From NCBI GenBank assembly GCA_007859745.1, contig SMLU01000002.1, forward strand, positions 1-52,941: a DNA stretch of 52,941 nt, given 5' to 3'. Below, piece by piece: positions 191 to 46,300 of this stretch (position 1 is the first letter of the stretch; each line of letters opens with the position of its first letter). The position numbers and the translations under genes were made by a program. A model generated the notes under the pieces. The model worked only from the letters and a program-made list of their open reading frames with translations. It did no database searches and was not told the origin of the DNA. This stretch comes from Phycisphaerae bacterium RAS1 (GTDB taxonomy: Bacteria; Planctomycetota; Phycisphaerae; UBA1845; Fen-1342).

Positions 191-223
191 GGGCGGCAGG
201 ACGGGCGAGACGCCCGTCCCACC
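191..223. repeat. short GC palindrome (ACGGGCG-agacg-CCCGT family)
   Basis: A short hairpin built on GGACGGGCGAGACGCCCGTC just downstream of the octahaem cytochrome gene. The same element is at 39007-39032, where it is translated at the end of ccoNO, and doubled at 48370-48433. It could act as a transcript-end hairpin here. Confidence 0.6.
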
Positions 224-243
224 CCAATGCCGGTGGTCCCCGG

Positions 244-1575
244 TCAGTCCGATTCCGGCAGGTCGTGCACGCGAAGCGCAATCTCGCTGGCGCGGGAAAC
301 GGAGAGCTCGAACAGGCCGTTGCCGTTGTGGCAGCGCAGGCAGACGTAGTCCACCGTCAGCACGGCCCGGTCTGAATCGTCCAGCTTGTACCGCGTGCCG
401 TCCGGCGTCAGCGCGGCGCGAAAGTCGATGTCGTCGGTGGTGATGCGGAAGATGTGCGAACGCGTGTCGCCGACGCGCGCCTCGCCGATCACCGCCGGGT
501 CGCCTTGCGCCACGGCTTTCACGGCAAACGGCATGTGGCAGCTTTCGCACGTGAGCGTTTCGGCGTGCCCCGGTCGGCGGAGCAGCTTGCCGCGGTGGCC
601 GGCCATGGTCTGGTCTGCGTGGCATACGCGACACTGATTGCGAATCGCCGCGTCGCGGTCGACGCTGAGCGAGCGATGCGGCTCGTGGCAGAACAGGCAT
701 GAGAATTCGCTGTGGCCGCCGCTGGCGCGCAGCTCGGAGGATTGCTGGCCGCATGCGATGAAGCCGTCGGCGGTGGTCAGGATGTCCTGGCCGGCGGCGT
801 CGCGGGCGTGGCACTGGCCGCAATCTTCCGCTGTCGCGGGGACGAAGAGCGCCCGCGCGGTCGGATTGGGCACGTGGTTCGAGCCGGGGCCGTGACAGGC
901 TTCGCACTGAACGCCGGGCTGCTGAAACGTGCCGCGCATGCCGGGGCGGCCGTCCTGGAAGACGGGCCGGTCGGCGGTGGAGTCGTGGGCGCCGGTGGCG
1001 TGACAGCGGAAACAGTCGTAGTCGAAGGGCTGCTGGTCGGTGCGCTCGGCGTCGTATGCCGCGAAGCCGCGCGCGATGCCTGCTGCCGGCAGGCCGAGGT
1101 TCCACTGCGTTTGTACCGGTGTGACGCCGTCGTTGCGGAGGAAGCCCGCCTGGTCGACGAAGAGCGCCGCTTTCACGTATCCGCCGATGACGTAGGCGAT
1201 GTCGGTCCAAGCGGAGCCGGCGGGCGGATTTGGGACTCCGGCGCGGGCGTTCTCGCTCGGGAAGCCCGGCGCGACGCCGTCGGGTCGCTTGAGGGCGTGA
1301 GCGTGCGCGTGAAGTCGGGCCTCATCTGCGATGCCAGGGTGGCACGCGGAGCACGCGGCCGAACCGACGTAGGTCGCGCCGGCGTTCGTTTTATCATCCT
1401 GGTTGTTGAAGATCGGCGGGCCGCTCTCGGGCGGGCAGCCGGCAGGAAGCCACACTACCAGCATGAGAGTCGGCGCGAGCAGCCTGAGCTGCCGGCTGGA
1501 AGCCGTCGAAAACAGCGCCGACGCGAAGCCGGCGCGATCGGGGAGAACATTCCGCATCAGCGGTTTATTTGTCAT
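244..1575 (-). CDS. octahaem c-type cytochrome lipoprotein
   Basis: A 443-residue exported electron carrier. The N-terminus has a long positively charged and hydrophobic stretch ending in a lipobox-like WLPAGC, so it is probably a lipoprotein. Eight CXXCH haem-binding motifs are visible in order: CSACH, CFRCH, CEACH, CGQCH, CLFCH, CRVCH, CESCH and CLRCH, with spare His residues that could be distal ligands. The overall layout recalls the cytochrome c554/multihaem cytochrome group, but no catalytic signature is seen, so a pure electron-transfer role is the safer reading. Its ATG overlaps the end of the preceding NHL-cytochrome gene by 11 bp, which implies translational coupling and a shared complex or path. 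Confidence 0.85.
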   Translation of the reverse strand: MTNKPLMRNVLPDRAGFASALFSTASSRQLRLLAPTLMLVVWLPAGCPPESGPPIFNNQDDKTNAGATYVGSAACSACHPGIADEARLHAHAHALKRPDGVAPGFPSENARAGVPNPPAGSAWTDIAYVIGGYVKAALFVDQAGFLRNDGVTPVQTQWNLGLPAAGIARGFAAYDAERTDQQPFDYDCFRCHATGAHDSTADRPVFQDGRPGMRGTFQQPGVQCEACHGPGSNHVPNPTARALFVPATAEDCGQCHARDAAGQDILTTADGFIACGQQSSELRASGGHSEFSCLFCHEPHRSLSVDRDAAIRNQCRVCHADQTMAGHRGKLLRRPGHAETLTCESCHMPFAVKAVAQGDPAVIGEARVGDTRSHIFRITTDDIDFRAALTPDGTRYKLDDSDRAVLTVDYVCLRCHNGNGLFELSVSRASEIALRVHDLPESD

Positions 1576-3517
1576 GGCACGTCAGGCAGAGATCAACCTG
1601 TTTCAGTCGCAGCCGAAAATCACGCTGGCCTGGGGGCGGGGCGGCGGCCGCGCCCAGCGCGCTGGTCGGAACGAAAGTGTCGCGCGCGTGCGGATTATGA
1701 CACGAATAGCAGGCCACGCGGCCATCCGCGAGCGGCAACTCCGCCGCGGCGCCGGTCTGCGCGGCGCGGCGCGCATGCATATGCGTCATCATCGCGCCGC
1801 TGAGCGGCTGATTCAAATGCCCGTTTGGGGCCGGATCGACGTGCATGGTGTGGCATCCGAGGCAAACGCGCGATCCCTCGCCGCGCAGGTTGGCGACACC
1901 GCTGCGGCGCCCACCCGCGGGTGTGGGCGGCGTGGGCGCGTGACACAGCGTGCACATATCAAGCCCGGGGTGGTTCGACTCGCCTTCGGGCAGATGCGGA
2001 TTCAGCCGCCAGGACTCGGAGGTGTGGCAGGCGCGACACATCGCGAGCGGCTGATCCACGTCAAACCCGCGGACGAACGCGACATTTTCCGTCGGGCGCT
2101 GCGGCGAGGGGCGGCAGTGCGCCTCGAACGAGTGACACGTGACGCAACCGATGCGTCCGCCGGAAAGCGGCCATCCTTCCGGGGCCGCCGTTCGCGAGCC
2201 GGCGGCGGGCCAGCCGATCGGGTGCGATTCGGCCCGCGCTTTCATGCCGTCGTGGCAGGAGATGCAGAGTGTGTCCACTTCCGCCAGATCGAGGCGCGGA
2301 TCGCGATCGACACCGGCGGTGTGGCAGGTCGTGCAGCTATCCGCGCGCCAGTGCGGGTTTGAGACGGTCGGTTCCGGCCCGCGCCGCAGCGGCGCCGGCG
2401 AAGCGGAAACCGCCGGCGCCGGCTGGCCCCCGCGCCACGCGAACACGCGCACGCCCGGCCGCACCATCTGCTCGGCGACGAGCACGTAATAAGCGGGGGA
2501 AAAGCCGGCCGGCAGGGTGCGCTCGGTCAGGAGCGGGCGCATGCAGATGGCGATCCCGGCCGGCAGCACGAGCGAGTCGTTACCCTGGCCCGGACCGCCG
2601 AACGAAAGCAGGGCCCGCCCGCGGGCATCGAAGGCGTGCACGCGCTGCGACGCGGCGTCGGTGACAAAGATGACACCGTCCGGGCCGACGGCCACGTCGC
2701 GCGGCCGGCCGAAATAGCCGCTGCGGTCGCCGGGCGCGCCGATGTCGCGAATCCACGCGCCGTCGGGCGAAAACACCTGCACACGGCAGCCGAGCATATC
2801 GACGACATAGACGTTGCCGTCGCCGCCGACGGTGATGCCCAGGGGTGCGCCGAACTCGCCGCGCCCGCGGCCGCGGCGGCCGATCGAGCGCGTGTGCTGT
2901 TGCGCGTCGAACACCTCGATGCGATGCGCGGCGGGGTTTGTGACCCAGATTTCCTCTCCGACGGCTGCGATGCCGGCCGGGCGAAACGGCAGTCCGTCGG
3001 AGAGCTTGCCCAGTTGCCCGCGCAGCCGCCCGTCCGTGGCGAATCGCAGCACGGCGCCGAGCTGCGCGTCGGCGACCAGCCAGTCTCCATCGCGCGCGAC
3101 GCAAATCGCGCTCGGCAGGCGCGTCGGCTCGGAGAGCGCGACGCCGGCCAGCGCCGCCGAGCCGATGTCGCAGCGCAGGACGCCGCTGTGACCCGCGTCG
3201 CACACGAGCACGGCGTCCGCCGCGGGCGCGATCGCCATCGGCTTGATGAGCGCGATGGGCGGCTCCGGCTCGACGCCGAACAGGAATTTTGAAAGCTCGA
3301 CCTCCGCGGCGCCGGGCGGGGGCGAGGTGCGCAGGTTGCCGAGCGAAGCAACGTAGGTGGCGGTGTTTTCGGCGGCGGCGTCGAGGGCGATGTCTTCGCG
3401 CGCTGCGCAACTGCCTGCAAACGCGGCAAGGAAGGTTGCCAGGAGCAGGATCGCGGCCGCCGCGGGCGCTTGCTTGCGCTTCGCGTTCTGAGTTGCTGGG
3501 CGGCGATCGGGTTTCAC
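1565..3517 (-). CDS. NHL beta-propeller fused to octahaem cytochrome c
   Basis: A 650-residue exported protein with two halves. After a signal peptide (possible lipobox FAGSC) comes an NHL-type propeller up to about residue 350 (repeats such as GEFGAPLGITV, YFGRPRDVAV, LVLPAGIAI). The second half has eight CXXCH motifs: CTTCH, CISCH, CVTCH, CRACH, CTLCH, CLGCH, CYSCH and CLTCH, the last almost at the C-terminus. The propeller probably binds a partner or substrate while the haems carry electrons; this is inference. The start is GTG with only a weak ribosome site. The signal-peptide n-region (QNAKRKQAPA) is encoded by a copy of a dispersed repeat at 3463-3492. It lies between a tetrahaem and an octahaem cytochrome gene in one unit. 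Confidence 0.85.
   Translation of the reverse strand: MKPDRRPATQNAKRKQAPAAAAILLLATFLAAFAGSCAAREDIALDAAAENTATYVASLGNLRTSPPPGAAEVELSKFLFGVEPEPPIALIKPMAIAPAADAVLVCDAGHSGVLRCDIGSAALAGVALSEPTRLPSAICVARDGDWLVADAQLGAVLRFATDGRLRGQLGKLSDGLPFRPAGIAAVGEEIWVTNPAAHRIEVFDAQQHTRSIGRRGRGRGEFGAPLGITVGGDGNVYVVDMLGCRVQVFSPDGAWIRDIGAPGDRSGYFGRPRDVAVGPDGVIFVTDAASQRVHAFDARGRALLSFGGPGQGNDSLVLPAGIAICMRPLLTERTLPAGFSPAYYVLVAEQMVRPGVRVFAWRGGQPAPAVSASPAPLRRGPEPTVSNPHWRADSCTTCHTAGVDRDPRLDLAEVDTLCISCHDGMKARAESHPIGWPAAGSRTAAPEGWPLSGGRIGCVTCHSFEAHCRPSPQRPTENVAFVRGFDVDQPLAMCRACHTSESWRLNPHLPEGESNHPGLDMCTLCHAPTPPTPAGGRRSGVANLRGEGSRVCLGCHTMHVDPAPNGHLNQPLSGAMMTHMHARRAAQTGAAAELPLADGRVACYSCHNPHARDTFVPTSALGAAAAPPPGQRDFRLRLKQVDLCLTCHDK
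3463..3492. repeat. dispersed repeat family 3 inside a signal peptide
   Basis: The segment GCTTGCGCTTCGCGTTCTGA matches the arms of the inverted repeat at 18509-18594 and the arm near 10126-10154. Here it encodes the basic n-region of the NHL-cytochrome signal peptide. Confidence 0.65.
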
Positions 3518-3544
3518 GGGCGCTGCTGCTTCCGGGTTTTCATA

Positions 3545-4246
3545 TCACAGGCGGTGGCACGCGAGGCACAACCGGCTGCGCTCGTTTGACTTCACGAGCA
3601 TTTTCTCGTGTCGCCGGGTGTTGTGCGGGTCATGGCAGGAAACGCACTGCACGCGCCCGCCGGGAAGCTCGATCAGGCCGTCCGCGGTGACGGCGGAGGC
3701 CGGCTGATACTGGCGGGCGATGTTGGGGTAGAGCACGCCGATGGGATGCGAGATCGAGCGCCGGCCGGCGGTGCGTGCGCCGGCGGCGGTTTCCTGCCAG
3801 GTGGCGGCGTGCGGTCCGGCGTAGACGTCCGGGGCGACCACGCCGTCGTGGCAGGAAAGGCACAGGAGCGACGACGAGTCGAGTGCGCCGTAGATCGTCT
3901 GGTAGGGCCGCAGCGGCTGCGTCGTGGGCGCGGCACGTTCCAGCAACGGCACCTGCGCGGCGCTGATGTGCGGCATGTGGCAGGGCAGGCACATATCGCG
4001 GGCGATTTTTCCTCCCTGCGTGAAATCGTGCTTGGTGCCGACGATGCCGAACGAAAAGGCGGCGACGGATTCGTCGCTGAGCGCTTCTGAGGGATGAGAG
4101 GCCGGCGGAGTCGGCGCGGCGGCAGGGGGCGGCGCGGAATTAGACGTCGGCTCGCTTGCCGCGGCTGCAGACGAGCGCCGGCCGCCCAGAAGTATCGCCG
4201 TCGCGACGGTCAGCAGGGCCAGAAGGATGAGCGGTCGATTTCCCAC
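3545..4246 (-). CDS. tetrahaem cytochrome c (doubled CXXCH type)
   Basis: A 233-residue exported cytochrome. The N-terminus (RPLILLALLTVATAILLGG) is a signal peptide or membrane anchor, followed by an Ala/Pro/Ser-rich linker to about residue 60. Four haem motifs follow: CLPCH, CLSCH, CVSCH and, three residues from the end, CLACH. The CLSCHDG and CVSCHDPHN contexts match the doubled CXXCH family. The start codon is GTG, about 46 nt below a good promoter. It is the first gene of the cytochrome set, 27 bp ahead of the NHL-octahaem gene, so the three are probably co-transcribed. Role: electron transfer in the periplasm. Confidence 0.85.
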   Translation of the reverse strand: MGNRPLILLALLTVATAILLGGRRSSAAAASEPTSNSAPPPAAAPTPPASHPSEALSDESVAAFSFGIVGTKHDFTQGGKIARDMCLPCHMPHISAAQVPLLERAAPTTQPLRPYQTIYGALDSSSLLCLSCHDGVVAPDVYAGPHAATWQETAAGARTAGRRSISHPIGVLYPNIARQYQPASAVTADGLIELPGGRVQCVSCHDPHNTRRHEKMLVKSNERSRLCLACHRL

Positions 4247-7069: not shown

Positions 7070-7885
7070 ATGATCCGCCTGACCCGCGAGGTTCGTTTTT
7101 CCGTTGATCGCGACTGGGCCGGGCGAGTGGAGTTTTCGCGGCCGGTCACGAACTCGTGGGCCGGCTGGCCTAGCGCGGTGGGGATCGTGCCGTTCCTGAA
7201 ACTCCGCGCCAGCGTCGTCGGCGAGCCCCATCCGCGCACCGGCTACCTGTGCAACATCAAACAGCTCGACGACCTGCTCCGACGGCATGCCATCCCGCTG
7301 GCCGCCGAGCGGCTCGCCTCGCGCGGCTGGCGCGTGGCGGCGGAGCGCCTGCTCTCGGAGCTGTGGGCTGCGGTGGATGCGAACACGCCCGCCGGTGCAG
7401 CGCTGGCGGCCCTGGAACTGGCCGCGACGCCGCATTTGCGATTCACAATCGAACGGGAGAACCCCGCGATGGTGCTTCTGACGCAGCAGTTCGAGTTTTC
7501 GGCGGCGCACCGGCTGCACTGCGGCGACCTGTCGGACTCGGAAAACCGTGCCGTGTTCGGCAAGTGCAACAACCCGAGCGGTCATGGGCACAACTACCTG
7601 CTCGAGGTGACTGTCGCCGGCCGGCCGGATGAGCGGACGGGAGCGGTGCTGCCCCTGCCGCAATTCGAGGAGATGGTGAAGCAGCGCGTCATCGACCGGC
7701 TGGATCACACGCACCTGAATCTCGACACCGCCGAGTTTCGCGACGTCAATCCGAGTGTCGAGAACATCGCCCGCGTCATCTGGGGAATGCTGGCGCCGCA
7801 TGTCGCGCCGCCGGCGCGGCTGGCGTGCGTGCGCGTCTATGAGACGCCCAAGACGTGGGCGGAATATGAGGGGAGTAGCGAATAG
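7070..7885 (+). CDS. two-domain 6-pyruvoyl-tetrahydropterin synthase/QueD homologue
   Basis: 271 residues, about twice the usual single T-fold. The C-terminal half (from about residue 140) has the family signature: FEFSAAHRLHC with a zinc His, GKCNNPSGHGHNY with the catalytic Cys and two zinc His, LDHTHLN, NPSVENIA, and the closing VYETPKTWAEY with the pterin-binding Glu. The N-terminal half (EVRFSVD, WPSAVGIVPFLKLRASV, GYLCNIKQLDDLL) looks like a second T-fold without the zinc and catalytic residues. Likely role: 6-carboxy-tetrahydropterin synthase in queuosine synthesis, or a related pterin step; the exact substrate is open. The stop codon lies inside a short 7-nt tandem repeat. Confidence 0.85.
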   Translation: MIRLTREVRFSVDRDWAGRVEFSRPVTNSWAGWPSAVGIVPFLKLRASVVGEPHPRTGYLCNIKQLDDLLRRHAIPLAAERLASRGWRVAAERLLSELWAAVDANTPAGAALAALELAATPHLRFTIERENPAMVLLTQQFEFSAAHRLHCGDLSDSENRAVFGKCNNPSGHGHNYLLEVTVAGRPDERTGAVLPLPQFEEMVKQRVIDRLDHTHLNLDTAEFRDVNPSVENIARVIWGMLAPHVAPPARLACVRVYETPKTWAEYEGSSE

Positions 7886-7917
7886 CGAATAGCGAATGGC
7901 GAATGGCGAATGGCGAA
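7877..7917. repeat. 7-nt tandem repeat, about six units
   Basis: Three AGCGAAT units then GGCGAAT units run through the stop codon of the QueD-like gene. The last residues and the TAG come from the repeat. Confidence 0.8.
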
Positions 7918-13782: not shown

Positions 13783-13939
13783 GAGCCGCGCGCGTAAGCA
13801 AGCGGTTCTTAAGCCAACGCTCCCTCACGGTCGCGGCTCGGAATCGAGGAACCGCTCCCGTCGCGGCTCGGAATCGAGGAACTGCTCCCTCACGGTCGCG
13901 GCTCGGAATCGAGGAACCGCTCCCTCACGGTCGCGGCTC
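13783..13939. repeat. repeat family 2 array (CTCCCTCACGGTCGCGGCTC)
   Basis: A hairpin-forming unit starting GAGCCGCGCGCGTAAGC is followed by three tandem units of about 36 nt, each with GGTCGCGGCTCGGA or a shortened form. Copies also occur at 22593-22650, 36528-36586 and inside ccoG at 40027-40114. Confidence 0.8.
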
Positions 13940-13954
13940 GGACAGAAACTTCGC

Positions 13955-39863: not shown

Positions 39864-41687
39864 ATGAACGCCGGCGTGCCGACATCCGAGCCGCGACCGT
39901 CCGGGAGCGGTCTGTCCGAACCCCGTGCGCCGAGCACGGGGTTGACGTCGGTGCGCGCTGAACGCCCCCTGTCCGCGAGCGTCACCCCGCCGCTTGGCGC
40001 GGCGGGTTCGGAAAAAGCCGACACAGAACCGCTCCCTCACGGTCGCGGCTCGGACAAACCGCTCCCTCACGGTCGCGGCTCGGACAAACCGCTCCCTCAC
40101 GGTCGCGGCTCGGATGGCGCGGCGGGTTCGGACAAGCCCGCCGTCGACGAGCTCGGACTGCTCCAGCCGGAGGAGGAAGTCCTCTCCACGCTCAACCGCG
40201 ACGGATCGCGCCGCTGGCTGCGGCCACGGCTGTCGCAGGGGCGCTTCCTCGTCGGCCGGCAGCTCACCGCCTACCTTCTGATCGCCGTCTTCACGCTCAT
40301 CCCGCACGTTCGAATCAACGGCGAGCCGGCGATGCTCCTGGACGTGGTCCACCGCAAGTTCGCTCTTTTCGGAATCGTGTTCCGCTCGACGGACACGGTC
40401 GTGCTTGCGTTCTTCCTCCTGGCGTGCGCCATCGCGGTTTTTCTTTTCACCGCGCTGCTGGGCCGCGTCTGGTGCGGCTGGGCGTGTCCGCAGACGGTCT
40501 ATCTCGAATTCCTGTACCGACCCATCGAGCGGCTCTTCGATCACACACGCGGCCGAGGCGGCCAGCCGCGCCGCCCGCGCTCGCCCGCGGGCTGGGCCGC
40601 GATGTACGGCCTCTACCTGCTGGCGTCGATGTTCCTGGCGCACACGTTCCTGGCCTACTTCGTCGGCGTCGATGAGCTGTTGCATTGGATGCGCCGCTCG
40701 CCGCTGGAGCATCCGGCGTCGTTCGCGGTGATGGCGGTGACGACGGCCTTGATGATGTTCAACTTCAGCTATTTCCGCGAGCAAACCTGCCTGGTGGCGT
40801 GTCCCTACGGGCGATTTCAGGCGGCGCTGCTCGATCGTGATTCGCTGATCATTAGCTATGACGCGGAGAGGGGGGAACCGCGATCGAAAGTCAGAAGTCA
40901 GCAACTAGAAACTGGAAACAAGAAACTCGAAACAAGAAATAGGAAATCAGAAATAGGAGACGGGGGAATAAGACCCGTGACTGCTTCGCGCGAGGCGGTT
41001 CAACTGCCGGTCGCGGGCGGCCCGGCTGCATTCACTTCTGACTTCTTACTTCAGACTTCTGACTTCGCGCCCGGCGATTGCGTCGATTGCGGCCTGTGCG
41101 TCGTCACCTGCCCCACGGGCATCGATATCCGCAAGGGACTGCAGATGGAGTGCGTCGGCTGCGCCCAGTGCATCGACGCCTGCGACCTGGTGATGGACAA
41201 GGTCAAGCGGCCGCGCGGGCTGATACGCTATACGTCCGAGGCGCGCCTGGCCGGGCAGCGCGGCCGAATCCTGCGGACGCGGGTGGTCCTCTACTCGATG
41301 GGATTGCTGGCGCTGCTCGGCGCGCTGACGGCGGTTGTCGCCACGCGCGGTCCGGCGGAAGTGATGATCCTGCAGGGACTCGGGCTGCCGTTCAACGAGC
41401 TGCCCGACGGCCGCATCGGCAATCCCATCCGCATCAAGATCACCAACCGCACGCAGGCGGCGGCGACCTATCGCGTGGAGATCGTGGGCGCCGCCAGCGC
41501 GACGCTTATTACCGACGCGCCGGCATTCAGCCTCGAACCCGGACAGACGCGCACCGAGGGCGCGATCATCACGCTGCCGCGCAGCGACTTCGCCGGCGGC
41601 CAGGCCAGCGTCGTCATTCGCGTCAGCGACGGGGCGGGCTTTACAAGGGAATTCAAGCGGCTGCTCCACGGCCCGGCGGCACGCTAA
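39864..41687 (+). CDS. ccoG: cytochrome oxidase accessory protein CcoG with repeat insertions
   Basis: 607 residues. CcoG is a polyferredoxin membrane protein that acts in copper handling for cbb3 oxidase. Visible: membrane segments around residues 135-290, VWCGWACPQTVYLEF, CLVACPYGRFQAALLD, CVDCGLCVVTCPTGIDIR and CVGCAQCIDACDLV, and a C-terminal Ig-like domain (NPIRIKITNRTQ). Two stretches are not CcoG: residues about 17-84 encode a palindromic repeat and three PLPHGRGSDK units, and residues about 341-400 encode an AT-rich element between YDAERGEPR and the ferredoxin motif. The frame stays open through both. The alternative of a later start is not supported, as no good start lies before the first membrane helix. 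Confidence 0.88.
   Translation: MNAGVPTSEPRPSGSGLSEPRAPSTGLTSVRAERPLSASVTPPLGAAGSEKADTEPLPHGRGSDKPLPHGRGSDKPLPHGRGSDGAAGSDKPAVDELGLLQPEEEVLSTLNRDGSRRWLRPRLSQGRFLVGRQLTAYLLIAVFTLIPHVRINGEPAMLLDVVHRKFALFGIVFRSTDTVVLAFFLLACAIAVFLFTALLGRVWCGWACPQTVYLEFLYRPIERLFDHTRGRGGQPRRPRSPAGWAAMYGLYLLASMFLAHTFLAYFVGVDELLHWMRRSPLEHPASFAVMAVTTALMMFNFSYFREQTCLVACPYGRFQAALLDRDSLIISYDAERGEPRSKVRSQQLETGNKKLETRNRKSEIGDGGIRPVTASREAVQLPVAGGPAAFTSDFLLQTSDFAPGDCVDCGLCVVTCPTGIDIRKGLQMECVGCAQCIDACDLVMDKVKRPRGLIRYTSEARLAGQRGRILRTRVVLYSMGLLALLGALTAVVATRGPAEVMILQGLGLPFNELPDGRIGNPIRIKITNRTQAAATYRVEIVGAASATLITDAPAFSLEPGQTRTEGAIITLPRSDFAGGQASVVIRVSDGAGFTREFKRLLHGPAAR
39915..40012. repeat. PE-1 repeat inside ccoG
   Basis: Left arm from 39915 (a CCCCGTGCGCCGAGCACGGGG variant) and right arm at 39986-40012 (canonical). 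Translated as part of the CcoG N-terminus. Confidence 0.85.
40027..40114. repeat. repeat family 2, three tandem 30-nt units inside ccoG
   Basis: Three units containing CCGCTCCCTCACGGTCGCGG with a 30-nt period, a multiple of three, giving PLPHGRGSDK repeats. It directly follows the PE-1 element. Confidence 0.85.
40888..41065. repeat. 178-bp element with 12-bp inverted ends inside ccoG
   Basis: AAGTCAGAAGTC (40888-40899) is the exact inverse of GACTTCTGACTT (41054-41065). Between them is an AT-rich stretch with repeated GAAAC and AGAAATAGG words, unlike the GC-rich gene around it. It interrupts ccoG without breaking the frame. Confidence 0.75.
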
Positions 41688-41694
41688 GAACGGC

Positions 41695-41855
41695 AAAACA
41701 ACCACGGAGTCACGGAGACACGGAGAATGCGCAAGAGAGAGATACGAGGACAAAGACGCCGATGGCGATACGGCGTTCATCGAGCTTCGCGCCTCCGATC
41801 CGCGTTTTTCGTACTCTCTTTCTTCTCCGTGTCTCCGTGTCTCCGTGGTTGTTTT
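41695..41855. repeat. 161-bp MITE-like element with 33-bp inverted ends
   Basis: Arms 41695-41727 and 41823-41855 match over 33 nt with one mismatch and contain tandem CACGGAGA words. It lies between ccoG and fixH. The middle has no long coding frame. Confidence 0.85.
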
Positions 41856-42435: not shown

Positions 42436-43208
42436 CGGCGCTGCTCGCGGCGATCGTGACCGCCAGCCTGCTGGGCAGCCTGCACTGCGCCGGCATGTGC
42501 GGGCCGCTGGCCGCCTTCGCCGTCGGCGGCAATCTCGCCGCGCCGCGCGCCCAGGCGCTGACCCACGCCGCCTACCACGCCGGCCGCCTCGTCACCTACG
42601 CGCTGCTGGGCGCCGCCTGCGGCGGGCTGGGCCACATGATCGACCTCGGCGGAAAAGTCGCGGGCGTGCAGCAGGCGGCCGCGATTCTGGCCGGAACGAT
42701 GATGGTCGCGTTCGGCGCCGTCGCCGGATTGCGCAGCCTGGGCGTTCGCATCTCGGAATGGCCCGCGCCGGCCGTGTTGACGCGCGTCGTCACCGCCGGC
42801 CATCGCGCCGCAGTCGGAATGACGCCGGTGGCGCGCTCCGCGACCATCGGCGTGCTCACCGGCCTGCTGCCCTGCGGCTGGCTGTACGCGTTCGCCATCA
42901 CGGCCGCGGGAACCGGCAACCCGCTGAGCGGCGCCGCGGTCATGGCCGCATTCTGGATCGGAACCGTGCCGGTGCTTCTGGCGCTGGGCATCGGCGTGAA
43001 TCGGCTGTCGGCCGCGGTCGGCCGCCGAGCCGCAACCGTGATGTCGCTGATGGTGGTTGCGCTGGGCGTACTGATGGTCGTCGAGCGCAGCCGCGTCGCC
43101 AGCGCCGTCGCCGCCGCCGGCCATTCGCCGCCGCCGACCGTGTCGGCCGCGGCCGAAAGCGTCGCCACGCTGAACTCTGCCGAGATGCCCTGCTGCCATG
43201 GCCGCTGA
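42432..43208 (+). CDS. SafE/TauE-family membrane protein of the cbb3 locus
   Basis: 258 residues, six or seven membrane segments, with the N-terminal signature SLHCAGMCGPLAAF and a second Cys-containing GLLPCGWLYAFA. The Cys-rich SLHCxGMCGP signature marks the CcoA-unrelated group of sulfite-exporter-like proteins that accompany cbb3 or copper genes, where metal transfer is likely (inference). GTG start overlaps fixH by 4 bp; its end overlaps ccoI by 11 bp. Confidence 0.82.
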   Translation: MTALLAAIVTASLLGSLHCAGMCGPLAAFAVGGNLAAPRAQALTHAAYHAGRLVTYALLGAACGGLGHMIDLGGKVAGVQQAAAILAGTMMVAFGAVAGLRSLGVRISEWPAPAVLTRVVTAGHRAAVGMTPVARSATIGVLTGLLPCGWLYAFAITAAGTGNPLSGAAVMAAFWIGTVPVLLALGIGVNRLSAAVGRRAATVMSLMVVALGVLMVVERSRVASAVAAAGHSPPPTVSAAAESVATLNSAEMPCCHGR

Positions 43209-45981
43209 ACCGCTCCTCGCCGTGCCGGTCGAAGCTCCACGGTCCACTGCGACCGCGGATGTTCTCTGCGCACACTGCGGCTTGCCCGTGCCGCCGGGGC
43301 TGGTTGACTTCGAGTCTGAGCAGGGTCTGTCCGAGTCTGAGCAGGGTCTGTTCGAGTCTGAGCAGGGTCTGGTCGAGCCCGCCGGCCGGCGCATGTCCGA
43401 ACCCGCCGCGCCAAGCGGCGGGTTGACGCTCACAGACCAGAGGCGTTCATCGAAAACCGACGTCAACCCCGTGCTTGGCGCACGGGGTTCGGACAGATGG
43501 CGCGCCGACGGCGCACGGGGTTCGGACAGACCGCCGGCCGAGCGCATTGCCGCTCTGCAATTCTGCTGCAACGGCTGTCGGGCCGTCTACGCCGTCATTC
43601 ATGGCTGCGGCTTGGAACACTACTACCGCCTCCGCAGCGCCGCCGCCGCCGCGCCCCAGGCCGCCCGCACCAGCGGCCGCAGCTACGCCGAGTTCGACGA
43701 TCCCGCGTTCGAGAAGGAGCACGTGCACGAGGCGCCGCAGGGGCTGCGGAGCGTCGAGTTGCTCCTGGCCGGCGTGCATTGCGGCGCGTGCGTCTGGCTG
43801 GTGGAGAAGCTGCCCAGCGTCGCCCCCGGCGTGCTGGAGGCGCGGCTGGAGCTGCGCCGCGGCGTGGTGCGCGTGACATGGGATCCGCTCGCGACCAGGT
43901 TGTCGAGCGTCGCCCGCGTGCTGGATTCGCTCGGCTACCCGGCGCACGTCGCCCGCGACGGAGCGGCCGTGGCGCTGCGGCGGCGCGAGGAGCGGCGGCT
44001 GCTGATCCGCATCGCAATCGCCGCGGCTTTGGCGGGCAACGTGATGCTGTGCGGCTTCGCACTGTACGGCGGCGTGTTCGCGACGATGGAAAGCGAGTTT
44101 TCGCGGCTCTTCCGCTGGATGAGCGCCGTTCTGGGAATGACGTCGCTGCTGGGGCCGGGCTTTCTGTTCTTTCGCGGCGCGTGGGCCGCGATTCGCACGC
44201 GTACGGCGCACCTCGACCTTCCGATCGCCGTCGGGCTGGCGACCGGCGCGGTCGTGGGAACGGCGAACACGCTGCTGAACCGCGGCGAAATCTACTTCGA
44301 TTCGCTGACGGTGCTGGTGTTCCTCCTGCTTGTTGGGCGCTGGATTCAGCGCAAGCAGCAGCGCGTCGCATCCGACGCGGTTGAATTGCTGTATTCGCTC
44401 ACGCCGGGCGCGGCGCGGAGAATCGAAAAGGGCGTCGTGTCCGAGGTCGCCATCGAATCGCTCAAGCCCGGCGACTTGCTCGAAGTGCGCGCCGGCGACG
44501 TGCTTCCCGTGGACGGCCTGATCGAGCGCGGCGCGTCTGCCGTGGATGAATCGCTGCTCACCGGCGAGTCGCGCCCGCGCGATGTGCACGCCGGGCAGCG
44601 CGTCGCCGCCGGCACGCTGAACGTCTCCGGCCGGCTGGAAGTGCGGGCCGAGGCCGCCGGTTCAGCATCGCGCGTCGGCAAGCTCATGCAGCTCGTCGAG
44701 CAGGCTGCCCGCCAGCCGGCCCCCATCGTCCGCCTGGCTGACCGAATCGCGGGACATTTCACCGCTGCGATGCTCCTTCTGGCGGTGGCGACGGCCGCGG
44801 CGTGGCTGCTGGTTGACCCGTCGCGGGCGCTGGACCACGCCACCGCGCTGTTGATCGTTACCTGTCCCTGTGCGCTGGGTCTTTCCACTCCGCTCACGCT
44901 GACGGTGGCCATCGGGCGCGCCGCGCGCGCCGGATTCCTGGTGAAAGGCGGCCTGACGCTCGAGCTGCTCGCGCGGCGCGGCACGATCTTCCTCGACAAA
45001 ACCGGCACGCTCACCCAGGGCCGCATGCGAATGCTGGAGTGGCTCAGCGACGACGCCGCGCGCCCGCTGGTAAGAGCGGTCGAATCGCACTCGTCGCACC
45101 CGATTGCTCGGGCGATGGTCGAAGCACTGACCGGCGAGCGCGAGGTCGTCGCCGCGGCCGTTCAGCAGCACGCCGCCGGCGGAATCGAAGGCCGCGTGGA
45201 CGGCCGCCACGTTCTGGTCGGCTCGCCGCGGTTCGTGCTGGCGTCCGGCGCGGCAGCGTCTGACGAAATCCGCGGGCACATCGCCGGCCTGCTGCACCGC
45301 GCCCGCACGCCCGTGCTGGTCGCCGTGGATGCGGTCGTGGTCGCCGTCGCGGGAATGGGCGATCCGCTGCGAGCCGACGCTCCGGCCGCGGTGAACGGCC
45401 TGCGAGCGCTGGGCTGGAACGTGGCGATCCTCTCCGGCGATCATCCGCAGGTCGTCGCCGCGGTCGGCGAGGCGCTCGGCATTCCGCCGCAGCACTGCCA
45501 CGGCGACGTCGCCCCGGAGCGAAAGCTGGCCATGGTTCGCGACGAAATGACGCGCGGCCCGGTCGTGATGATCGGCGACGGCGTCAACGACTCGGCCGCG
45601 CTGGCGGCCGCCAGCGTCGGCATCGCCGTGCAGGGAGGAGCGGAGGCCAGCCTGGCCGCGGCCGCGGTTTACCTGAATCGTGCCGGACTGACGCCGGTGG
45701 TGGAGTTGATGTCGTCGGCCCGCAGGGCGTATCGAGCGATCCGCCGCGGGCTGGCCATCTCGATCTTCTATAACGCCATCGCTGCGGCGCTGGCGATGAC
45801 CGGCCTCATCAGCCCGCTGATTGCGGCGATCCTGATGCCGATCAGTTCATTCACGGTGCTGTCGATCGCGCTGTCGGCCCGAACATTCGACGACGCGCGC
45901 CGCGGCGGCGTTCGCGCTGAAGAACCCGGCGAAACCGCGGCCCGCGCCGAATGCAACGGCAGGAGCGCGGCATGGGCGTGA
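43198..45981 (+). CDS. ccoI: copper-transporting P1B ATPase (CcoI-like) with repeat insertion
   Basis: 927 residues. The N-terminus has a zinc-ribbon-like CAHCGLPVPP at residues 22-30 and FCCNGCRAVY near 122, joined in homologues but here split by about 60 repeat-encoded residues (about 38-98). Then an HMA domain with GVHCGACVWL near 192, eight membrane segments, CPC in VTCPCALG near 554, DKTGT near 600 and GDGVNDSAA near 793. It exports copper to the periplasm for cbb3 assembly. Overlaps the genes on both sides. Confidence 0.9.
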   Translation: MAAEPLLAVPVEAPRSTATADVLCAHCGLPVPPGLVDFESEQGLSESEQGLFESEQGLVEPAGRRMSEPAAPSGGLTLTDQRRSSKTDVNPVLGARGSDRWRADGARGSDRPPAERIAALQFCCNGCRAVYAVIHGCGLEHYYRLRSAAAAAPQAARTSGRSYAEFDDPAFEKEHVHEAPQGLRSVELLLAGVHCGACVWLVEKLPSVAPGVLEARLELRRGVVRVTWDPLATRLSSVARVLDSLGYPAHVARDGAAVALRRREERRLLIRIAIAAALAGNVMLCGFALYGGVFATMESEFSRLFRWMSAVLGMTSLLGPGFLFFRGAWAAIRTRTAHLDLPIAVGLATGAVVGTANTLLNRGEIYFDSLTVLVFLLLVGRWIQRKQQRVASDAVELLYSLTPGAARRIEKGVVSEVAIESLKPGDLLEVRAGDVLPVDGLIERGASAVDESLLTGESRPRDVHAGQRVAAGTLNVSGRLEVRAEAAGSASRVGKLMQLVEQAARQPAPIVRLADRIAGHFTAAMLLLAVATAAAWLLVDPSRALDHATALLIVTCPCALGLSTPLTLTVAIGRAARAGFLVKGGLTLELLARRGTIFLDKTGTLTQGRMRMLEWLSDDAARPLVRAVESHSSHPIARAMVEALTGEREVVAAAVQQHAAGGIEGRVDGRHVLVGSPRFVLASGAAASDEIRGHIAGLLHRARTPVLVAVDAVVVAVAGMGDPLRADAPAAVNGLRALGWNVAILSGDHPQVVAAVGEALGIPPQHCHGDVAPERKLAMVRDEMTRGPVVMIGDGVNDSAALAAASVGIAVQGGAEASLAAAAVYLNRAGLTPVVELMSSARRAYRAIRRGLAISIFYNAIAAALAMTGLISPLIAAILMPISSFTVLSIALSARTFDDARRGGVRAEEPGETAARAECNGRSAAWA
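43312..43374. repeat. 21-nt tandem repeat (three units) inside ccoI
   Basis: Three units GAGTCTGAGCAGGGTCTG plus three variable bases, 43312-43332, 43333-43353 and 43354-43374; translated as ESEQGL repeats. It sits 22 bp before a PE-1 element. Confidence 0.9.
43396..43493. repeat. PE-1 repeat inside ccoI
   Basis: Left arm 43396-43422 canonical; right arm ending 43493 is the CCCCGTGC...GCACGGGG variant. Same mixture of variant and canonical arms as in ccoG but in the other order. Confidence 0.85.
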
Positions 45982-46163
45982 TTTATATCGTGCTGCCGCT
46001 GGCGCTTCTGTTCGCGGGCGCGGCCGTGATCGTCTTCATGTGGGCGGTGCGCAGCGGGCAGTTTGATGATCTGGATTCAGCCGCGTATCGCGCGATTCAG
46101 GACGAGGACGGGAGTCCGAAGACAGGGAAGAAGGGATCAAGGGATCAAGGGGTAAAGGGATAA
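45972..46163 (+). CDS. ccoS: cbb3 oxidase maturation protein CcoS
   Basis: 63 residues: membrane segment VIYIVLPLALLFAGAAVIVFMW followed by AVRSGQFDDLDSAAYRAIQDED, the CcoS signature. Overlaps ccoI by 10 bp. The last 13 residues (KKGSRDQGVKG) come from a dispersed repeat that starts within the gene, replacing the original tail or stop. CcoS is required to insert haem and copper in cbb3 oxidase. Confidence 0.88.
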   Translation: MGVIYIVLPLALLFAGAAVIVFMWAVRSGQFDDLDSAAYRAIQDEDGSPKTGKKGSRDQGVKG

Positions 46164-46300
46164 AGGGCGCGCAGGCCGGCTGGACCTTGCGAGCCCTTTG
46201 TCGTTGAACCGCGGTTCCCTTGGTCCCTTGGTCCCTTGTCCCTTGTCCCTTGGTCCCTTGATCCCTTGATCCCTTGATCCCCTGGCCCCTTGATCCCTCC
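46128..46300. repeat. imperfect inverted repeat of GATCAAGG words
   Basis: Left part (46128-46165) has tandem AAGGGATC words; right part (46210-46300) has tandem CCCTTGGT and CCCTTGAT words in inverse. The hairpin could terminate the cbb3 transcript and the facing moaA transcript. Confidence 0.75.

Follow-up and report, generated by a model that had tools for sequence, protein, structure and literature searches.

Arrays in the ccoG gene

The gene for the cytochrome c oxidase accessory protein CcoG of the Phycisphaerae bacterium RAS1 contains, in frame, two convergent arrays of a short repeated word that recurs throughout this genome. We believe, with a probability of roughly 0.6, that these arrays are gene-less relatives of the arms of the elements formed by the intervening sequences (IVSs) of rRNA and their S23p gene, dispersed in the genome and tolerated in protein loops. 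We have focussed on a stretch of 52,941 nucleotides (contig SMLU01000002.1, positions 1 to 52,941, hereafter the window), in which the relevant features are:

39864–41687, + strand: ccoG (cytochrome c oxidase accessory protein), intact ORF with a TIGR02745 match and open frame, host of the arrays
40887–40963, + strand: left array, 11 units in one 7-bp register, passing from AAAGTCA/GAAGTCA to GAAACNN and then GAAATNN (repeats)
40888–40899: perfect 12-bp inverted arm, its inverted match (mate) at 41054–41065
40964–41025, + strand: GC-rich middle (71% GC), read as native CcoG linker from its motif, LPV codons at 41004–41012
41026–41066, − strand: right array, five GAAGTNN units (41034–41066) plus the inner word GAATGCAG (repeats)
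41703–41850: convergent CACGGAGN octamer arrays of the same architecture, just downstream of ccoG
46131–46298: convergent AAGGGANN octamer arrays, gene-less; AAGGGANN also arms an S23p gene of the same genome (locus L188)
7876–7917, + strand: single heptamer array, TAGCGAA/TGGCGAA, a word found in the upstream arm of an S23p element (L230b)

A first-pass annotation had described this part of ccoG as one AT-rich element of 178 bp with 12-bp inverted ends, and the description was partly confirmed: its components are real, the single unit is not. The ends exist as perfect copies (40888–40899 and 41054–41065), located where both arrays carry GAAGTCA words, and the repeated words are indeed AT-rich (38 and 41% GC in the arrays, against 67% in the window). 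The inverted pair alone is weak evidence, because such pairs are common in the window (105 inverted 12-mer pairs 80–220 bp apart, versus a mean of 3.45 and a maximum of 12 in 20 shuffles). The left array matched itself at a lag of 7 in 49/70 comparisons (maximum 38 in 60 shuffled windows), and it joins GAAGTNN and GAAACNN in a single register. A GAAACNN array nested into a GAAGTNN one is not needed, as all 11 units keep that register. The middle 62 bp (40964–41025), with their high GC and an LP[VIL] motif, do not fit one AT-rich unit. They code for about GIRPVTASREAVQLPVAGGPA; LP[VIL] was present within the linker in 21 of the 67 other CcoG rows, and LPV is the majority in a 22-row alignment. 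Judging by sequence, the middle is probably native CcoG linker and not part of the element, and arrays flanking a native-looking linker argue against a single 178-bp insertion.

The ORF (39864–41687) has no stop and its product is CcoG (TIGR02745), so that the frame is kept as had been claimed. The linker that joins RGEPR to the first ferredoxin Cys motif has 65 residues here, against 9–44 (median 16) in 67 other CcoG rows (of 99 loci, 69 rows had both motifs in one frame and one duplicate gene was removed, leaving this one and the 67). None of those 67 linkers contained such words when the peptides were read by eye, which bears out the statement that the stretch was unlike any CcoG. AlphaFold2 gave a pLDDT of at least 70 to 419 of the 505 residues of the CcoG query and below 50 to residues 239–300, i.e., to the CcoG linker (40884–41069 in the window); a loose linker, as modelled, is consistent with the tolerance of the arrays. 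The terminal inverted repeats of the stretch form a stem with the 12-bp perfect arms (RNA fold z = −3.15), weaker than ten other pairs that we folded and with a long, native-looking loop. There is no S23p ORF between the CcoG arrays, and the stretch sits in ccoG, not in an rRNA gene.

The arrays had been called the second, unrelated element of the gene, and we found no sequence kinship between them and the PLPHGRGSD-coding repeats at 40027–40114. The latter belong to a repeat with the core CGCTCCCTCACGGTCGCGGCTCGGA, found at 40027–40114 and at 13818–13942 of the window; in the N-terminal extension of CcoG it is read as PLPHGRGSD. At two other loci (L128 and L130) heptamer arrays are abutted by close variants of this word.

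Dispersal of the words in the genome

Copies of the whole 178-bp unit were sought in the genome and none other was found; what recurs genome-wide are the arrays. The interpretation of the first-pass annotation is thus partly supported, in that the repeats are foreign-looking, dispersed and keep the frame, while the single unit has to be abandoned. A search with three GAAGTCA units, allowing up to 3 mismatches, gave 133 overlapping matches and the reversed word gave 0; here and in the other word searches (with a word from genome G007 and with AGGGATCR, see below) the counts include overlapping matches, several per array. In 32 stretches around the matches we recovered 44 GAAGTNN arrays of at least three units, most often of five (19 arrays), followed by six (8), four (6) and three (5), the remaining 6 having more. 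All 11 pairs within 300 bp of each other were convergent, with gaps of 14–48 bp, and no mate was detected for 22 of the 44 arrays. Ten pairs from three word families had hairpin folds with z from −5.5 to −10.2. As far as their positions were read, GAAGTNN arrays seem mostly to be situated at the ends of genes or beyond them. Inspection by eye of the array flanks for target duplications gave nothing convincing, the nearest genomes compared being from other genera.

Short periods were also detected independently of any given word. In a sample of 452,941 bp (the window and twenty 20-kb stretches) Tandem Repeats Finder returned 36 rows of period 7/8, a few of them plain GC-rich words, versus 3 in a Markov-shuffled copy. 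The inner word of the right CcoG array, GAATGCAG, is also at the inner end of arrays at L111, and GAATGCA is placed likewise at L128. At four more loci (L114, L120, L121 and L122) the inner side of the GAAGTNN arrays is followed by a shared type of word, AACGCGANGCGCNAGCGAGCGCG, with variation, which makes a further dispersed repeat adjoining heptamer arrays. A rule by which the purine-rich strand always comes first was discarded, since S23p arms such as those of L164 (TCAGCTT) do not fit it.

S23p genes and their periodic inverted flanks

An S23p match was found in 47 of 61 genomes, those of this organism and its relatives. We analysed 72 loci, comprising the ones of this genome (G000) and, roughly, the highest-scoring of the other matches; 71 were usable for the flank test (L211 was dropped for its short flanks, like 3 of the 20 loci with RAYT transposase genes used for comparison). 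The 300-bp flanks were inverted copies of each other (score ≥28) in 68 of the 71, versus 6/300 random places of this genome and 31/421 mispaired flanks, the exceptions being L163, L177 and L178; flanks in direct copy were found at 5/71. The best lag was 7, 8, 14 or 16 on both flanks in 62/71 S23p loci versus 5/500 random ones. RAYT genes also had inverted flanks (14/17), and a 7/8 (14/16) lag on both sides in 0/17. Along similar lines, Tandem Repeats Finder (periods 6–9) detected an array on both flanks in 61/72 S23p loci, and an array of these periods in 32/288 random windows. The S23p flank arrays (n = 131) had a period of 7 in 69 cases, of 8 in 59 and another one in 3. They contained 91 different words, an upper count of families because one-letter variants were counted apart.

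Strong flank periodicity was found at 78/96 S23p loci versus 4/500 random ones, in a set that includes 25 loci from named genomes and from which five weak matches (L274, L277, L278, L280 and L281) were left out. Among 30 S23p loci from as many named genomes, most of which belong to other groups, the link with arrays is weaker: the flanks were inverted in 21 and had the 7/8 (14/16) step on both sides in 14. Most myxococcal and deltaproteobacterial S23p loci have no 7/8 step. A different repeat seems to be involved at the Gemmatimonas-type loci L269 and L270, and some of the inverted matches of L269–L273 likewise resemble other repeats.

On a tree of 86 S23p proteins (51 of period 7 and 35 of period 8, ten loci without a clear period being left out) the period changed 15 times, versus 27.6 ± 2.4 with shuffled labels (minimum 22, 500 shuffles). 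Removing five long rows gave 15 changes versus 26.4 (minimum 19, 300 shuffles), the resolution of the tree being poor (stars on 8 of its 83 inner branches). In other words, the period follows the S23p tree while the words differ widely, a pattern that common descent of whole elements would also give. Fusion of S23p in frame into host proteins was considered and set aside, with no clear case among 11 S23p ORFs read by eye.

A complete element in the 23S rRNA gene

One S23p gene of this genome (L127, C1:3065256–3065718; PF05635, "23S rRNA intervening-sequence protein", E 7e-31) lies between convergent GAAACTA arrays and inside a 23S rRNA gene (RF02541 at 309–3601 around it). The two rRNA pieces flanking it break off at positions 1210 and 1227 of the model, and alignment puts the junction near E. 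coli position 1168 (query base 475 of 480 aligns to 1163), in what we take to be helix 45 (numbering about 1164–1185). It is a true 23S IVS, with its location in 23S rRNA, inverted arms and S23p ORF, and its arm word belongs to the same family, GAAACNN, as part of the left CcoG array. The other 19 S23p loci of the Rfam scan (20 in all) had no rRNA around them within the stretches scanned. Helix 45 is named as the site of the Coxiella IVS in the accessible text of PMC4990558, where tandem GACAGAT heptamers, varying in number between strains, are described before the S23p gene. Beside another S23p gene (L164), at about 1.2–1.4 kb, there are two Rfam Acido-Lenti-1 RNAs on opposite strands (2987–3033 and 3146–3191), maybe another hairpin repeat.

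Gene-less arrays and S23p across genomes

Three gene-less families have S23p-armed counterparts in this genome: GAAACNN (L127), AAGGGANN (L188) and GAGTAGC/GCGAATN, for which both S23p genes are at L230. Of the 6 S23p matches of this genome 5 were inspected, and none of these had GAAGTNN arms; a similar word arms L186, in another genome (G031). A word from the S23p element of genome G007 had 80 overlapping matches in G007 itself (at least 11 of them in the element), and the next count among the 61 genomes was 18. For AGGGATCR the matches were 161 in this genome, 132 in G009, 124 in G003, 105 in G025 and 89 in G010; S23p elements armed with it were found in this genome, G009 and G010. The top count, 448 in G012, is uninformative, given a control of 802. 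Array matches, taken for the first two words that were searched, were present in 2 of 14 genomes without S23p (G035 and G054) versus 29 of 47 with it.

The number of array matches correlated with that of S23p genes (rho 0.47, p 0.0001) and less so with that of Y1_Tnp, the RAYT domain (rho 0.23, p 0.07). However, the counts of both genes are themselves correlated (rho 0.48) and therefore a common cause, e.g., genome openness, is possible. This genome has 20 RAYT (Y1_Tnp) matches, the most of the 61.

Arrays inside other proteins

CcoG is not the only protein affected. In gcvP a single five-unit array sits in frame and leaves 51 residues between two conserved motifs, versus 41 in six relatives whose loop is array-free; in genome G011 the same loop has 63 residues and carries an array of CCACGCAG octamers instead (of 23 loci, the motif filter of this comparison let through 8 and dropped 15). 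A uvrA-like ORF contains an in-frame GAAGTNN pair and further arrays. Its linker is long and variable among the 13 rows of relatives, so an insert there cannot be sized, and at least 2 of these rows (L284 and L296, by eye) have other words in it. The presence of other arrays in the gcvP and uvrA loops of relatives indicates that some loops have been hit repeatedly and independently. The odd heptad stretches of these proteins (SEVRSQK, LETRNRK, TSDF) are explained as repeats at the DNA level.

Some additional observations concern the same ORFs or their surroundings. The uvrA-like ORF (L111, + frame, from about residue 370) exceeds 1,700 residues, with several in-frame array pairs by eye, and its array words differ (SSELGVASSELK..RYSELATLNS; NLQLAARYSELAT; GNREQGTEQ). 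The gcvP ORF of L112 (C1:698200–702200 of this genome, minus-strand ORF 216–3899, GDC-P and GcvP2_C domains) includes in frame a Y1_Tnp/RAYT domain (residues 873–951 of 1228) flanked by the repeat words ARPPS and RPGAAGL; apparently, a transposase gene sits in frame inside glycine dehydrogenase. The neighbouring ORF 43198–45981 of the window, whose sequence reads like a copper-type P-type ATPase, has a 21-bp repeat, TTCGAGTCTGAGCAGGGTCTG, present about three times in the region coding for its N-terminal part (43309–43377).

Alternative explanations

Template switching writes a reverse-complement copy nearby and is a source of inverted copies. The arrays could accordingly be plain heptamer or octamer microsatellites, grown by slippage from chance seeds and paired convergently by such switching, with S23p having no role. 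We consider this rather unlikely, although several points speak for it: unit number and word vary within arrays, half of the GAAGTNN arrays (22/44) lack a detected mate, the gcvP insert is a single array, and the native-looking CcoG middle fits local copying. Heptamer arrays of Beggiatoaceae and cyanobacteria are moreover described with no mention of S23p in the accessible text of PMC4679880. However, slippage by itself would not be expected to scatter one word over many separate places, nor to give the convergent orientation of 11 out of 11 pairs, the preponderance of 7 and 8 in the range 6–9 (128/131) or the link to S23p.

The two explanations that involve a transposase seem to us far less probable. 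The single 178-bp unit of the first-pass annotation would be a MITE with terminal inverted repeats mobilized by a transposase in trans, as the 12-bp perfect ends, the kept frame and the hairpin fold (z −3.15) might invite one to think; we rejected it because the genome has no second copy and the middle looks native. Other matches cover at most 47 of 216 query bases and reach at most 9 bases into the middle, which itself matches CcoG linkers in the LPV motif; the loops of the other pairs (14–48 bp) have no shared core by eye, bar a few bases adjoining the arrays, and there is no fixed outer end. Nor do we give much credit to REP-type repeats spread by RAYT (Y1_Tnp) transposases, despite this genome having the most Y1_Tnp matches of the 61 and one such domain in frame in gcvP. 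The flanks of RAYT genes are inverted (14/17) but not 7/8-periodic, the heptamers flanking 0/17 of those examined, and array matches track S23p (rho 0.47) better than Y1_Tnp (rho 0.23), with the caveat of the intercorrelated gene counts (0.48); RAYT was thus rejected as the mover.

Comparison with known systems

The likeness to 23S rRNA IVSs with an S23p ORF is close in the full copies, with inverted arms that pair into a long stem, arm sequences that include tandem heptamers and S23p in the loop, and one such copy is present in the 23S gene of this genome near the helix-45 site. In contrast, the CcoG copy is gene-less, lies in frame in a protein gene and encloses native-looking DNA. It is not classed as an IVS, which it resembles in arms and fold. 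The CcoG pair need not descend from a whole element, given its lack of S23p, its location outside rRNA, the inequality of its arms (11 versus 5 units) and a middle that looks native. The papers that we found hold no description of IVS dispersal outside rRNA. Neither did we find a published description of dispersed S23p elements or of 7/8-bp arms in a literature coverage that lay mostly outside the subscription journals.

The in-frame insertions in conserved protein genes (ccoG, uvrA and, as a single array, gcvP) are reminiscent of the Rickettsia palindromic elements (RPEs), short palindromic DNA found in frame in many unrelated protein genes according to the accessible text of PMC10969869. RPEs, however, form families of ca. 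150 bp, and no sequence family of about that length is common to our copies, in which nothing recurs but the fold and the arrays of a 7- or 8-bp word; the words are many, and there is a link to S23p. The heptanucleotide repeats of cyanobacteria are known as STRR. Like ours, the heptamer arrays of Beggiatoaceae and cyanobacteria (TAACTGA) are dispersed and sometimes lie within ORFs or at their ends, and strains differ in steps of 7 nt; as far as the accessible text of PMC4679880 goes, those of the Beggiatoaceae genome are mostly one-way and just before start codons, whereas here they converge around S23p or a short gap. REP/BIME sequences with their RAYT likewise consist of small inverted repeats that are dispersed and in some cases intragenic (PMC3733652, accessible text), but the 17 RAYT loci, compared by flank lag and not by GTAG/CGTC tags, had no 7/8-bp step on both sides.

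A possible mechanism

In its full form the S23p element is a hairpin of about 450–750 bp, with two inverted arrays of a 7- or 8-bp word around one S23p gene. If the CcoG arrays are indeed gene-less relatives of its arms, the gene-less arrays, alone or in convergent pairs, would be its scattered kin, between genes and, wherever the frame and the stop codons permit, in presumably flexible loops (CcoG, UvrA, GcvP). A repeated word without stop codons in its repeats reads open in every frame, because neither 7 nor 8 shares a factor with 3, and this may help an array to survive within a gene. We infer that the arrays move or are copied, and that S23p, perhaps with another enzyme, mobilizes them by recognizing the arms. 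The copying itself might be RNA-based with a borrowed reverse transcriptase, or occur by template switching or through a nuclease. The single array of gcvP and the native-looking middle of CcoG would fit an arm that arrives alone, or a mate written nearby afterwards.

S23p is a four-helix-bundle protein, and S23p and Avd form pentamers. It may bind the arms, with the 7/8 step being the footprint of one subunit and set by S23p. The solved S23p-like structures 2gsc and 2rld have five chains each as deposited (the PDB search also matched engineered TPR proteins, taken as spurious), and these five chains, together with five units being the commonest size of GAAGTNN arrays, are what led us to the idea of a five-fold ring. 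More tentatively, S23p could assist a broad class of selfish hairpins, whose 7- or 8-nt arm step it would set (one repeat per subunit of the five-fold ring); the 23S IVS would then be only the best-known landing site, and gene-less copies would spread and colonize protein genes in frame.

The function and origin of rRNA IVSs are unclear, one theory being that they are mobile elements whose ORF codes for a component of their mobility (PMC4990558, accessible text). Our finding gives this theory a concrete form: nearly all the S23p genes examined in this order lie between inverted flanks, dozens of gene-less arms of this kind are scattered over the genome and some have entered proteins, and S23p is their testable partner.
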